Shown here in pieces: positions 4,291 through 61,980 of a stretch of DNA of 64,000 nucleotides. Both the position numbers and the translations under genes were made by a program. The DNA comes from Sporomusa sp. KB1 (GTDB lineage Bacteria; Bacillota; Negativicutes; Sporomusales; Sporomusaceae), in the NCBI RefSeq assembly GCF_007830295.1, contig NZ_VLKC01000002.1:2265776-2329775 (forward strand). Reading direction: 5' to 3'. The notes below the pieces were generated by a model. That model was not told the origin of the DNA and did not search any database. It saw only the letters and a list, made by a program, of their open reading frames with translations. Numbering within the stretch: position 1 is the stretch's first letter; each line of letters begins with the position of its first letter.

Positions 4291-5904
<1,614 letters not shown>

Positions 5905-58090: not shown

Positions 58091-58216
58091 GGAAAACGAT
58101 TAGAAATGTCCAGATGCGAGGCGCGACGAGGACGTGACCGCAGTCGTACTGGGAAGTACGTCGGAGGGAACGCCCGCAGGAGCAACGAAGCAGATGGGCG
58201 TTTATAATCGTTTTCC
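58091..58216 (+). repeat. GC-rich imperfect hairpin element, probably a dispersed repeat
   Basis: Perfect 12-base inverted repeats at the ends (58091-58102 and 58205-58216) continue inward as a wobble-rich stem to about 22 pairs. At the centre is CGTACT-GGGA-AGTACG (58145-58160). Base composition is clearly richer in G+C than the flanks, and the style matches repeats I recall from related Firmicute genomes. It ends 13 bases before the next start codon and abuts its ribosome site. Confidence 0.65.
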
Positions 58217-58229
58217 GCAGGGGGATAAG

Positions 58230-59192
58230 ATGCATATGCTCATAATGCCTGTCGCTAACGGCGTATTGCCAAGGCCACAGGGTGGAACGATTACCGGTAT
58301 GTTTATTATCGAAAACGGCGGTCAGTTACTGCTGGATGTGGGGGTGGGACGAGAAATCCTTATTTGTCCCTGGATTGTTGAAGAACAAGCCTTATACCCT
58401 ATTGGTGTAATTGTCCGCATTATGAACATTTGGAGTCAGACGGCTGTAGATAATAATAATGTCGAAACGCCGGTACTTATGGCTAAATTGGAAGGTAGAG
58501 GCCATGCCCGCTGGTATACTATGCGGACAGCGGGCAGTTATCTTTACTCAAATGATATCGAATACATCAACCTAAAAAAGATGCGTAAGGAATATCCAGT
58601 TATCTCCGGCGCTGGGTGGGCACCTCAAGGAGGATACACTGAATTTCGCGATAAAAGTGATATCCCTGTAACAATTTACGGCTCAGATCTTGAGACAGGC
58701 GAGCAAGTCAGCATAACGGCTAATTTAGGTGGTTTGGTTGAGCTTGAACAGGCTCATACGATTGAGCACTCGGTTATCAGGGCTTTGACTACCTATGGGT
58801 TATGCACGGCACGAACGTTGGTGGAAGCTATGGGCCGAGAGACTGATGAGTTAAAAAAATCAGTGGAGTTTAGTATTAAACATACCATGCCGGAAGCATT
58901 GGGTTTGACAGCCAGCGGGGCTTGTGGGAATCCGATGACTAATTTAGCCCAATTTTATTTGGCGCAAGAGTTTGTTAACAACATTGAGGCAGGTAAGTCA
59001 CTGAATGAGTCTATTGACAAAGCTCGTCGTGCTACTATGTCTCAGCTTACTGATGATATTGGTATTACCATGAATCAGGGCATCCGGGTGCTGCAAGGAC
59101 TCAAAAAGGGTATGGCTCATGATGATACCGTATTGAAGCTGGAAACTTATAAAAGAGTAATTAGCCGTTTTCCTTTTGAACCTTGGGAATAA
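58230..59192 (+). CDS. uncharacterised protein with HxxEH motif
   Basis: A 320-residue cytosolic protein I cannot assign to a named family. The N-terminal half is beta-rich (MLIMPVANGVLPRPQGG, then GVIVRIMNIW). The C-terminal half is helical and has HTIEH at 176-180, a metal-binding pattern seen in M16 peptidases and in LuxS (HTLEH type), with Cys232 in GACGNPM further on as a possible third ligand. ATG 58230 follows AGGGGGA; the open frame extends back to 58134 through the hairpin element, which is unlikely to be coding. It precedes the HTH regulator by 117 bases. Confidence 0.65.
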   Translation: MHMLIMPVANGVLPRPQGGTITGMFIIENGGQLLLDVGVGREILICPWIVEEQALYPIGVIVRIMNIWSQTAVDNNNVETPVLMAKLEGRGHARWYTMRTAGSYLYSNDIEYINLKKMRKEYPVISGAGWAPQGGYTEFRDKSDIPVTIYGSDLETGEQVSITANLGGLVELEQAHTIEHSVIRALTTYGLCTARTLVEAMGRETDELKKSVEFSIKHTMPEALGLTASGACGNPMTNLAQFYLAQEFVNNIEAGKSLNESIDKARRATMSQLTDDIGITMNQGIRVLQGLKKGMAHDDTVLKLETYKRVISRFPFEPWE

Positions 59193-59230: not shown

Positions 59231-59282
59231 TTGTTATTTAGTAAAGATAATGTTAAAATATGCATGTACACAATAGTGTGCA
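59231..59282 (+). promoter_or_regulatory. promoter with overlapping dyad before the HTH regulator
   Basis: TTGTTA at 59231-59236, 17 bases, TAAAAT at 59254-59259. Just downstream TGTACAC (59265-59271) and GTGTGCA (59276-59282) form a 7-base dyad with one mismatch around AATA, over the expected transcription start. This is a good position for a repressor, most simply the HTH protein encoded next. Confidence 0.55.
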
Positions 59283-59309
59283 CATATACTAAGGGGAGAT
59301 GAGCGCGCC

Positions 59310-59831
59310 GTGTTGCTTCGTATTGGCGACAAGATTGTTGATCGACAGAAAATTCATCATACTGTTGACCGAATTCTTGAATTGCGGCGAGATGGCTTAT
59401 CACAGCAAGAGGTGGCAGGCCAAACTGGTGTTGATCGCACCTTTGTTTCGCGTCTCGAAACCATTGGCGAGATTCGTAAAGGCGGCCGTGTAGCGCTAAT
59501 AGGCTTTCCAATAAAAAATTGTCAAGAGATATATACTGTTGCCAGGCAAGAAGGTGTTGACTTTTGCCTTGTTTTATCTGATCAGGAACGCTTAGATTTT
59601 GTTCAAACCAAAAGCGGAGTAGAATTATTTAACACTATTATGGAAATAATATCCAACGTCCATAAGTATGATATAGTAATTATTATTGGCTCAAATATGC
59701 GCATTAAACTAATGGAAGCCTTACTAGACAAAACAGTAATTGGTGTACAAATTGGAGAATCGCCAATTTCTGAAGATAAATATGTCAATCCGGAAGATAT
59801 TTGTGCGCTTATCAGGCAGCTGAGGTTTTAG
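59310..59831 (+). CDS. HTH transcription regulator with alpha/beta ligand-like domain
   Basis: A 173-residue protein. Residues about 15-60 form an XRE-like helix-turn-helix (LELRRDGLSQQEVAGQTGVDRTFVSRLE). Residues about 65-173 are alternating beta and alpha stretches (RVALIGFPIKN, DFCLVLSDQERLDF, YDIVIIIGSNMRIK), suggesting a Rossmann-like sensing domain. GTG 59310 has AGGGGAG 11 bases upstream. It heads a likely operon with the next two genes (gaps of 16 and 14 bases) and may sense a product or substrate of those enzymes. Confidence 0.75.
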   Translation: MLLRIGDKIVDRQKIHHTVDRILELRRDGLSQQEVAGQTGVDRTFVSRLETIGEIRKGGRVALIGFPIKNCQEIYTVARQEGVDFCLVLSDQERLDFVQTKSGVELFNTIMEIISNVHKYDIVIIIGSNMRIKLMEALLDKTVIGVQIGESPISEDKYVNPEDICALIRQLRF

Positions 59832-59847
59832 CCAGGAGGATACAAGG

Positions 59848-60750
59848 ATGAAACAGGTGGTAAGCATCAGTCTGGGTTCATCAAATCGTAACAGCACGAT
59901 TATTACTGAATTTGGTGGTCAACAGTTTCAAATTAAGAGAATCGGAACTGATGGGAATAAACAGGTAGCAGCAGATCTTATCCGTGAACTGGATGGTCAG
60001 GTGGATGCAATTGGTCTTGGTGGTACTGATTTATATATTTATGCTGGTAAAAAGCGGTATACCTTCCGGGAATCAGCGGTATTAGCTGCTAATGCCAAAA
60101 TAACACCAGTAGTTGATGGCAGCACCATTAAGAATACATTGGAGCGGCGGGTAATACCTTATCTTATTAACAAATATGGTTTTGAATTCAAAGATAAACA
60201 GGCGCTTATTGTATGTGCTGTTGACCGGTTCGGATTAGCTGAAGCTTTGGCAGGCGCGGGCTGTAAAACCGTGTTTGGCGATCTGATGTTTGGCCTGGGC
60301 TTGCCAATACCCATTACGACCTTAGACAGCCTGAATCGATTGGCTAATCTGGTAGCTCCTGTTATTACCAAATTGCCTGTTAGTTTGTTCTATCCTACAG
60401 GCAATAAGCAAACCCAGATGACCCCTAAATTTGCGAAGTATTTTCACCGTGCGTCGATTGTTGCTGGTGATTTTCATTTTATTAGGCGCTACATGCCAGA
60501 TACTATGAAAGATAAGTTGATTATTACCAACACAGTAACACAAGAGGATGAAGTTTTGCTAAAAGAGCGGGGGGTTACTACCTTAGTAACAACTACACCG
60601 GAAATGGGTGGCCGATCTTTCGGGACTAACCTATTAGAAGGAATGCTGACGGCCTTATCCGGCAAACATCCAGCTCAGCTAACGGTAGAAAATTATATTG
60701 ATCTTATTGAACAAGCTGGGATTGAGCCAAGGTTTAAAAAACTTACATAA
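59848..60750 (+). CDS. uncharacterised protein (of a type often labelled quinate 5-dehydrogenase)
   Basis: A 300-residue cytosolic protein. Homologues next to COG5322 genes are often labelled quinate 5-dehydrogenase, but I see no glycine-rich NAD(P) motif of the usual form to support this. Visible features: an N-terminal VVSISLGSSNRNSTI, AIGLGGTDLYIYAG, ALIVCAVDRFGLAEAL, and a C-terminal region ending EMGGRSFGTNLLEGMLTALSG. Strong AGGAGGAT ribosome site; 14 bases separate it from the reductase-like gene. The two proteins probably act together. Confidence 0.6.
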   Translation: MKQVVSISLGSSNRNSTIITEFGGQQFQIKRIGTDGNKQVAADLIRELDGQVDAIGLGGTDLYIYAGKKRYTFRESAVLAANAKITPVVDGSTIKNTLERRVIPYLINKYGFEFKDKQALIVCAVDRFGLAEALAGAGCKTVFGDLMFGLGLPIPITTLDSLNRLANLVAPVITKLPVSLFYPTGNKQTQMTPKFAKYFHRASIVAGDFHFIRRYMPDTMKDKLIITNTVTQEDEVLLKERGVTTLVTTTPEMGGRSFGTNLLEGMLTALSGKHPAQLTVENYIDLIEQAGIEPRFKKLT

Positions 60751-60764
60751 GGAGGCGCTTGTAT

Positions 60765-61859
60765 TTGCAAAAGTTTGCTTTTGTAGTTCATCCTTTGGAA
60801 GCTAGCGATTTTAGCCGGAAGTTTTCTTTTACCCGTAACTGGCCTGATAGGTTAGTAGAAGGTATTATCAAATACATACCGCCGTTCAAAGTCTCTCACA
60901 TTAGTGGTATTGATTCCGGACATAATAAGGCAGAAGGCTGGTTTGTCGGGTGTCCTCTGACGTCACGGCAAATGGTTGCCATGCCTGAACCGTATGTAAT
61001 TAATAAAATCATAAAGACCGGTAAGGTAGCTGAAAAACTCGGAGCTAAAATTATGGGTCTTGGTGCTTTTACATCTGTTGTTGGTGACGCAGGCATAACA
61101 GTAGCTAAAAACTTAAAAATTGCCGTAACAACAGGCAACAGTTACACCGTAGCTACCGCGCTAGAAGGTACACGCCAAGCTGCCAAAGCAATGGGGATTG
61201 ACTTATCGCGGACTAATGTGCTTATCTTAGGAGCTACTGGGTCTATTGGCGCGGCTTGCGCTCAGATTTTAGCCCGGGAAGTGCGCTACTTGACACTGGC
61301 GGCCCGGGATGAGGTCAAACTAGAAAAACTTTCCAAACAGATTTTGAAAACTACAGGATTAGCTGTTCGGGTAACGGCAAATACTAAACAGGCCATTAGA
61401 AATGCCGACATTGTGGTAGCTGTAACCAGCGCTATTGATAGCATAATTGAGCCTGAGGACCTAAAGCCGGGAGCTATTGTCTGTGATGTGGCCAGACCAC
61501 GTAATGTTTCACGCCGCGTAGCGGAAATACGCAATGATGTACTTGTGCTTGAGGGCGGGGTTGTGGAGGTTCCGGGGGATGTACAATTTGGACTGAATTT
61601 TGGGTTTCCGCCGCAAACAGCTTATGCGTGTATGGCTGAAACCATGATATTAGCGTTAGAGGGGCGCTATGAGAACTTTACGCTAGGGCGGGACTTAACG
61701 GTTAAGCAAGTGGAAATCATTGATAGACTAGCGGCTAAGCATGGCTTCAAATTGGCAGGGTTTCGCAGCTTTGAACGAGCTGTTACTTCACAGGAACTTG
61801 CGTCTATTAAAGCCAATGCACTTGCAAAAACTTTGCAGATTTCGAAAGGAGTGCTTTAG
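60765..61859 (+). CDS. COG5322-type dehydrogenase resembling acyl-ACP reductase
   Basis: A 364-residue NAD(P)-dependent protein. The Rossmann motif is GATGSIG (156-162). Several blocks follow the order of cyanobacterial acyl-ACP reductase (AAR): GLGAFTSVVG, TTGNSYTVA, the Rossmann motif, VARPRNVS, VLEGGVVEVPGD, and YACMAETMILALEGRYENFT, with Cys289 in the position of the catalytic cysteine of AAR. AAR makes fatty aldehydes for alkane synthesis; whether this protein does so is unknown. TTG 60765 has GGAGG nine bases upstream; TTG 60759 is possible. It ends the HTH-led operon. Confidence 0.78.
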   Translation: MQKFAFVVHPLEASDFSRKFSFTRNWPDRLVEGIIKYIPPFKVSHISGIDSGHNKAEGWFVGCPLTSRQMVAMPEPYVINKIIKTGKVAEKLGAKIMGLGAFTSVVGDAGITVAKNLKIAVTTGNSYTVATALEGTRQAAKAMGIDLSRTNVLILGATGSIGAACAQILAREVRYLTLAARDEVKLEKLSKQILKTTGLAVRVTANTKQAIRNADIVVAVTSAIDSIIEPEDLKPGAIVCDVARPRNVSRRVAEIRNDVLVLEGGVVEVPGDVQFGLNFGFPPQTAYACMAETMILALEGRYENFTLGRDLTVKQVEIIDRLAAKHGFKLAGFRSFERAVTSQELASIKANALAKTLQISKGVL

Positions 61860-61865
61860 AAAATA

Positions 61866-61894
61866 TTGACAAAGGACCTATTTATGCCTATAAT
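61866..61894 (+). promoter_or_regulatory. perfect-consensus sigma-A promoter of greA
   Basis: TTGACA at 61866-61871, exactly 17 bases, TATAAT at 61889-61894. Predicted start near 61901, giving greA a leader of about 215 bases. Confidence 0.85.
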
Positions 61895-61948: not shown

Positions 61949-61980
61949 AGTGTCAAGTTCTACTTGGCACTATTTATATT
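61949..61980 (+). terminator. hairpin in the greA leader, possible attenuator
   Basis: Ten-base stem with one G-U (61949-61958 with 61962-61971), three-base loop, followed by ATTTATATT. The T-rich tail is modest. Confidence 0.45.

Follow-up and report, generated by a model that had tools for sequence, protein, structure and literature searches.

What use an anaerobe could have for a protein resembling cyanobacterial acyl-acyl carrier protein (ACP) reductase (AAR) is the question raised by a three-gene cassette of Sporomusa sp. KB1, located in a stretch of 64,000 nucleotides (contig NZ_VLKC01000002.1, positions 2,265,776 to 2,329,775, forward strand) that is referred to here as the window. In cyanobacteria, AAR is coupled with a deformylating oxygenase for the production of alkanes. 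The three genes, called as open reading frames on the + strand, encode a helix-turn-helix (HTH) regulator (59310..59831, 173 amino acids (aa), GTG start), a protein named P0002 to which no fold or function has been assigned (59848..60750, 300 aa), and P0003 (60765..61859, 364 aa), predicted from homology to be an acyl-thioester reductase of the AAR/PigE type. A previous sequence-only reading had described this operon-like row, in which the gene for an AAR-like protein is joined by those of an uncharacterised protein and of a dedicated regulator, and all three genes were found where it had placed them. That reading also asked how an anaerobe would use an acyl aldehyde. Conversion to a long-chain amine by transamination is what the evidence suggests, and P0003 most likely works in a pathway leading from acyl thioesters to amines. 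Handles beginning with G and L denote genomes and loci, G000 being the Sporomusa source genome.

P0003 as a predicted acyl-thioester reductase

The comparison with AAR by hidden Markov models that had been proposed as a check was carried out with NCBIfam. The best model for P0003 was PigE (NF053554, 214.1 bits), followed by AAR (TIGR04058, 126.3 bits) and then by generic dehydrogenases. The PigE match aligns residues 55-353 of P0003 with positions 58-356 of the 837 in the profile, which belong to the reductase half. The best matches of a phmmer search of the PDB were PigE (4ppm, E 4.6e-32) and AAR (6jzq, E 3.6e-28, residues 15-331), with 30% identity in the alignment with AAR. The five blocks in which the likeness to AAR had been noticed (GLGAFTSVVG, TTGNSYTVA, GATGSIG, GGVVEVPGD and AYACMAET) are all present in the P0003 translation. 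In AAR, C294 carries the acyl group and GATGDIG (residues 162-168) is the NADP(H) loop (PMC10829540). The phmmer alignment with 6jzq places P0003 Cys289 (codon TGT, 61629..61631, + strand) at Cys294, in agreement with the equivalence previously suggested, and makes it the predicted catalytic residue; the NADP(H)-binding loop GATGSIG (residues 156-162, 61230..61250, + strand) aligns with GATGDIG.

The resemblance to AAR thus holds for the homologous region, the cysteine, the GATGxIG loop and the free-standing format of about 340-365 aa, but not for membership of the AAR family, which was rejected because the TIGR04058 cut-off (449.7 bits) is not reached. P0003 also differs from AAR in that its partner appears to be a transaminase. 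The PigE equivalog was rejected as well (cut-off 850 bits; no transaminase domain in the chain). PigE, an enzyme of prodigiosin synthesis, is a single chain with the reductase first, whereas here the two activities are encoded by separate genes or fused in the reverse order, and no pigment cluster was seen here. Both relatives are far off in a tree of 35 rows whose bootstrap had not converged: AAR lies on a long separate branch (4.66), the PigE group at 3.84, the separate P0003-type proteins are not gathered in one clade, and the transaminase-reductase fusions of Bacillota described below form one group (100/99) with Leisingera inside.

A shikimate/quinate or amino-acid dehydrogenase identity, named in the sequence-only reading as an outcome that would refute it, was rejected because only the Rossmann part matches. 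PF01488 (shikimate/quinate dehydrogenase) scored 47.2 bits over a cut-off of 24.3 on residues 141-259 only, several other dehydrogenase domains also exceed their own cut-offs on this part, and the shikimate dehydrogenase equivalog NF001319 gave 26.4 bits against a cut-off of 252.

Association with class III transaminases

Thirty genomes picked for a weak or absent P0003 yielded a match in 22 (E 1e-8), and in 20 of these it lies within a frame of 867-1033 aa that is also matched by the transaminase query. Transaminase-reductase fusions of about 850-1030 aa occur in many Bacillota. The fusion directly follows P0002 in L166 (the same as G236), L169 (the same as L225, G108), L229 (G321) and L071 (G356); L158 was not counted because the transaminase gene after P0002 is cut by the contig end.

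The TRANSAMINASE link was analysed in 83 genomes chosen, non-randomly, by the state of their reductase; the query was taken from the G296 fusion and consisted of its transaminase half. A separate transaminase was scored as present when a match outside a fusion began no later than residue 8, extended at least to residue 400 and had an E value of 1e-70 or better; this threshold was chosen once the output was known. All 26 genomes whose P0003 is separate and conserved have such a transaminase (26 of 26) versus 5 of the 57 others (Fisher p 7e-17, or 1.8e-15 when G378 and G043 count as present, kinship not being corrected in either value). The 26 genomes include G147, G040, G035, G033 and G030; the cysteine was read in 11 of them and the rest were classed by a full-length match of at least 51%. 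No separate transaminase was detected in any of the eight genomes with P0002 but no intact P0003, nor, in one search, in any of fifteen Negativicutes without P0003 (other than G032).

Physical proximity was observed at two loci where P0003 lies away from P0002: a transaminase, an SRPBCC protein and P0003 are encoded in a row in L272 (Kyrpidia), and the transaminase gene adjoins that of P0003 in L274 (Syntrophomonadaceae). The separate class III transaminase of Sporomusa (C1:4547515-4548702) is followed by an SRPBCC gene of the lipid-transport type. Among 20 loci of separate transaminases, neighbours included SRPBCC-type proteins in eight (PF03364 in the one tested), GT4 glycosyltransferases in three (the best model for one being monoglucosyldiacylglycerol synthase, under cut-off) and ABC1/UbiB proteins in two. 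PigE is the best NCBIfam model for the transaminases of L233 and L236 (515.5 and 512.1 bits), as it is for P0003. From the fusions, the adjacency and the co-occurrence, P0003 most likely belongs to an acyl-thioester-to-amine pathway.

Four fusions have been characterised, three of them originating in Thermaerobacter and Thermincola and the other in P. putida; as transaminases they prefer long or aliphatic aldehydes, and their reductase half has been assigned by structure (PMC10829540). PtTamH converts C12 aldehyde into C12 amine and acts in a cascade with TamA, an ACP-bearing protein (PMC9594044). TamH, KecF, PpKTFusion, TmFusion, TsFusion and TfFusion share the transaminase-reductase order and the catalytic residues of the Bacillota fusions, which can replace the pair of separate transaminase and P0003; the Thermaerobacter and Thermincola fusions are themselves from Bacillota. 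Unlike these published proteins, P0003 is unfused and shares its cassette with P0002 and a regulator. In the available text of PMC10829540, the Bacillota fusions are given no physiological role.

Two other observations were made on fusion-type genes. A Leisingera plasmid carries a 4188-bp gene (L253:2594-6781) annotated as a class III aminotransferase, with a reductase-type domain near its centre and with an MMPL transporter and an outer-membrane lipoprotein-sorting protein as neighbours; this is perhaps an aminolipid or polyketide locus. DegV-type genes are located near the fusion in three of 20 loci (L079:4574-5434, which matches PF02645, L080:4466-5308 and L087:8833-9708).

Distribution of the cassette and association with P0002

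A first search revealed P0003 matches in 36 of 41 genomes, the source genome counted, which greatly exceeds what chance would give. Thirty-five of them show 70-100% identity over most of the length (in two pieces in G022), and the remaining one, in G032, has E 7e-6 only. The neighbourhood survey proposed in the sequence-only reading was carried out on this set, and the order HTH, P0002, P0003 was found in 20 of the 20 loci read. A phylum survey was then based on 348 genomes with a completeness of at least 90. P0003-like sequences were detected in 217 of them (E 1e-20 or better, counting fusions as well as diverged copies), so that the system is conserved as had been supposed, and P0002 in 256 (E 1e-15). 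Both proteins matched in 214 genomes, P0003 only in 3 and P0002 only in 42; the reductase almost never occurs without P0002, and the reverse is not true. No description of the cassette system was found in the literature searched.

The carriers among the best 80 loci include Sporomusa, Anaerospora, Propionispora, Moorella, Heliobacterium, Thermoanaerobacterium, Tepidanaerobacter and Halonatronum, together with metagenome-assembled genomes (MAGs) of Syntrophomonadaceae, Armatimonadota and Sumerlaeota. Sporulation was considered as the link for the cassette, and the Armatimonadota carriers speak against it. A genome-wide search of 21 carrier genomes gave a P0003 match in 19. In six of these P0003 lies away from the P0002 in question, with 42-56% identity (Armatimonadota L119, L129 and L146, Hebobacteria L163, Zipacnadia L168, Kyrpidia L142), and in four the match falls within a fusion-type frame of 748-918 aa. 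The L104 genome has a weak match (1.2e-16), and none was found in those of L139 and L154. A P0003 profile search took in 19 of the 42 P0002-only genomes, together with those of L139 and L154 and a further four. The P0002-only genomes and those of L139 and L154 gave weak partial matches only (G168, 9.9e-11; G134, 2.6e-7; G274, 8.9e-7), the one in G168 sitting at a degenerate copy of the locus. Values of 4e-130 and 8e-7 were obtained for the fusion-bearing G132 and for G029, which has neither protein.

P0002 has no credible Pfam or NCBIfam family, profile searches of Pfam and the PDB retrieved no relative, and no match was found on plasmids. Quinate 5-dehydrogenase is a name given to P0002. A conserved protein of Deinococcus-Thermus carries the same annotation (PMC9425974) and may be the same protein. 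P0002 stands beside the reductase almost everywhere.

Proposed pathway and lipid product

The reading that we favour, with a moderate degree of confidence and from sequence comparison, is that P0003 and the separate class III transaminase supply a long-chain amine for an aminolipid of the N-glyceroyl-alkylamine type, from an operon autoregulated by the HTH protein and with P0002 accompanying. P0003 would take a long-chain acyl group from ACP (or coenzyme A, CoA) onto Cys289 and form the aldehyde by reduction with NAD(P)H. The class III pyridoxal phosphate-dependent transaminase, encoded elsewhere in the Sporomusa genome, would then turn the aldehyde into a primary amine with a long chain. Other lineages would use adjacent genes or one fused protein for the same two steps. 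The amine would most likely become the amide-linked third chain of a lipid resembling N-glyceroyl-alkylamine-phosphoglycolipids, and P0002 would probably contribute to this lipid at a step that comes later or is more general. The sequences themselves show the homology, the catalytic residues, the fusion and adjacency with the transaminase, the co-occurrence and the operator, and from these we infer a long chain, a reductive direction, a lipid product, the step of P0002 and the binding of the operator by the HTH protein.

The lipid idea started from the alkylamine in the phosphoglycolipids of Deinococcus-Thermus, together with the quinate 5-dehydrogenase annotation mentioned above. According to a 2025 paper, phosphoglycolipids bearing an alkylamine reportedly dominate the lipidome of several Bacillota. 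Moorella sulfitireducens carries the whole cassette (L167), and the AAR model TIGR04058 matches three of 14 control genomes, namely Synechococcus elongatus, Thermus composti and Deinobacterium chartae, one of them over the cut-off, while the source genome, with 126 bits, is under it. Deinobacterium belongs to Deinococcota, and T. composti and D. chartae belong to the lineage that has an alkylamine in its marker lipid (PMC3035268). The N-glyceroyl alkylamine structure has been described in Thermus, Meiothermus and Deinococcus (PMC3035268, PMC3398001), alkylamine-bearing phosphoglycolipids of Deinococcus have been known since the 1980s (references in PMC3398001), and Moorella thermoacetica is listed with N-glyceroyl alkylamines (PMC13274423, which cites Bale et al. 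2025). Reported producers and gene carriers overlap in the literature at the level of genus (Moorella) and phylum (Deinococcota), although what is compared is a lipid and not a gene family. The enzymes for the third hydrophobic chain in T. thermophilus had not been identified as of 2022 (PMC9636437), and no gene assignment for alkylamine lipids was found among the open-licence papers that the searches listed. Among the possible products, the alkylamine of these phosphoglycolipids appears the likeliest.

If this is correct, candidate genes are named for the first two steps of the alkylamine lipid, plus the associated protein P0002; the presence of an AAR-like enzyme in an anaerobe is explained, and a genomic marker for alkylamine lipids becomes available. 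A bolder proposal is that the cassette and the separate transaminase fill a gap in the synthesis of N-glyceroyl alkylamine phosphoglycolipids in Bacillota, Armatimonadota and Deinococcota by constituting its missing alkylamine arm, P0002 being a new enzyme family that joins the glyceroyl group to the amine, perhaps from activated phosphoglycerate, or that acts on the glyceroyl head group. We put this forward tentatively, as possible but rather doubtful.

The long-chain amine could instead be destined for a secondary metabolite, a signal or release as a free amine. Such an end is suggested by the nearest characterised relatives, PigE, TamH and KecF, which lead to pyrrole and tetrahydropyridine alkaloids (PMC8341465, PMC9594044, PMC6498172), and by the NRP/PKS (non-ribosomal peptide/polyketide synthase) clusters that antiSMASH revealed in the genomes of three thermophiles (PMC10829540). 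Nevertheless, the cassette lies beside housekeeping genes and is conserved in many families, and lipid-handling genes are present among the identified neighbours of the transaminase (most of the other neighbours being unannotated), which makes this destination unlikely.

Arguments against the pathway and alternative roles of P0003

Several observations weigh against the proposed amine pathway or its lipid end. Separate transaminases were also detected in three of the 26 other fusion-type genomes (G132, G321 and G108), where they occur beside the fusion, and in two of the 23 genomes without P0003 (G032 and G066). G043 is borderline, just missing the transaminase threshold, and the transaminase and reductase halves of G378 are in adjacent but different frames. 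P0002 is not specific to this pathway, because 42 of its 256 carriers have no P0003 match. The AAR-model matches of Thermus and Deinobacterium are known by score alone, and no report of alkylamine lipids in Sporomusa was found among the papers listed by the literature search. With C12-CoA, PtTamH formed no C12 amine (PMC9594044).

A further point of this kind is that the Sporomusa transaminase matches putrescine aminotransferase first (540 bits, cut-off 612), with PigE at 434, so a putrescine role is possible; the same model is the nearest for the L250 transaminase. P0003 might accordingly reduce a short or dicarboxylic acyl-CoA to a semialdehyde on the way to an omega-amino acid or a polyamine precursor, beta-alanine and other semialdehyde routes having been considered here, and many superfamily members in the NCBIfam match list do act on semialdehydes. 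This substrate range is improbable, since the alignment with AAR takes in the N-terminal domain from residue 15, the characterised fusion transaminases favour long or aliphatic aldehydes (PMC10829540), and L272 has a lipid-transport-type protein between the transaminase and P0003. Putrescine aminotransferases are catabolic enzymes, and the same genes would fit a pathway running in reverse, in which the transaminase would make aldehydes from amines and P0003 would oxidise them to acyl-CoA. We give this very little credence: AAR is described as reductive (PMC10829540), and the Sporomusa transaminase is encoded at another locus, without the cassette operator.

The last point concerns the many diverged P0003 copies that have lost the cysteine and/or the NADP loop and are still at the locus, a retention that a purely catalytic role does not explain. 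After dropping rows identical over the last 200 residues, the homologue alignment contained 82 rows with at least 50% identity to the P0003 of the window, 79 of which have the cysteine column, and Cys is present in 78 of these. The sole exception is G108, with a C to S change, a damaged loop and a fusion elsewhere in the genome. Among the 31 rows under 50% identity, 27 have the column and only six keep the residue. Cysteine and loop are both kept in 25 of 25 fusion-type rows, which include a second copy in G155 whose transaminase is not shown and G378. In genomes with a fusion, damage to the separate copy is common (G051, G158, G183 and G108; in the loop only in G143 and G208), but Cys was also lost where no fusion was seen, as in the f87 genomes and others, and G147 has an intact separate P0003 beside a diverged fusion. 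P0003 might hence have turned chiefly into a partner of P0002 with a non-catalytic or regulatory function, as would suit copies that repeatedly lack these motifs between P0002 and greA or lysS. For the window protein this is most improbable, because it falls within the intact group.

Some of these copies deserve separate mention. A fast-evolving protein of 295-383 aa without Cys or loop occupies the place of P0003 in L031 (6476-7510), L037 (6876-7763), L040 (5916-6806), L111 and L140, and is possibly a P0003-derived pseudo-enzyme. In L224 (6180-9987, - strand), a fusion stands in tandem with a separate reductase whose NADP loop is damaged. One genome has two cassettes (L225:4911-9035 and G108:C54), one of the fusion type with its own HTH-P0002 and the other with the C to S reductase; its listed contamination is 7%. 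Thermaerobacter may have both types, as an intact separate copy is present in MAG L137 and a fusion has been published for T. marianensis.

The regulator and a conserved operator

In the alignment, the regulator shows a helix-turn-helix at about residues 20-55 and a conserved C-terminal domain of about 110 aa; its match to Pfam HTH_31 (E 3.4e-4) is under cut-off. A palindrome, TGTACACAATAGTGTGCACA (59265..59284), lies upstream of the HTH gene and is conserved there, with the consensus TGWRCACANNNNTGTGCACA, between the promoter and the gene. From 125 loci offered, 75 were scorable (an identified HTH start, 90 nt or more of sequence before it, and no identical upstream region in another locus). 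At most two mismatches were found in 70 of these 75 loci, three in one and six or seven in four, one of which (L155) has a similar palindrome with different spacing, whereas none of 375 shuffles reached two or fewer; the pattern was derived from the same loci that were scored, and the shuffle, in two-base blocks, is crude. This conserved 20-bp palindromic operator before the cassette is new. Its position and co-conservation suggest that it probably serves as binding site for the HTH regulator of the cassette itself, which would sit over the start of its operon and tune expression, an intermediate of the pathway being the probable signal.

A search allowing up to two mismatches covered 25 genomes, namely the source genome and others of its family and order, and all 25 have an operator with 0-1 mismatches about 1.5 kb upstream of P0003. 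Only one second place of this quality was detected, in G009 (one mismatch, L227 about 4416-4435), adjoining a gene that we presume to be dnaA. Sites with two mismatches are frequent, near the control level in some genomes. The operator was also considered as a guide to a wider regulon, and none was revealed, with essentially one site per genome tested. A promoter-like site precedes the operator (TTGTTA-17-TAAAAT, 59231..59259, + strand, 9/12 matches, TG ahead of the second hexamer). Because such sites are not enriched in the region (9 found versus 11.0 expected), its support comes from its place just upstream of the conserved operator.

Genomic context

The order of genes on the + strand is coaX, dusB, an unnamed gene, the HTH regulator, P0002, P0003, greA and lysS, where coaX, dusB, greA and lysS are names that we assigned from the sequences. 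Gaps of 16 nt (HTH-P0002) and 14 nt (P0002-P0003) separate the cassette genes. The P0003 start at 60765 is favoured over the TTG at 60759 selected by the gene-calling tool, because the ATG-starting orthologues begin there (MEKFAF...) and an AGGAGG ends nine bases upstream. The location between dusB and greA-lysS given in the sequence-only reading is right on the greA side; on the other side the unnamed gene intervenes after dusB. As a pointer to function this neighbourhood was rejected and says little, since those genes are housekeeping ones. The promoter scan located a perfect consensus promoter for greA (61866..61894), so greA-lysS is probably transcribed apart from the cassette, and a terminator-like hairpin is present at 61949..61971.

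The unnamed gene (58134..59192, + strand) encodes a protein without a Pfam or NCBIfam family. Homologues of 42-46% identity occupy the same place in L021, L022 and L023 and start about 33 residues later, which suggests that the true start is probably near 58230, and a relative with 40% identity is present in L036.

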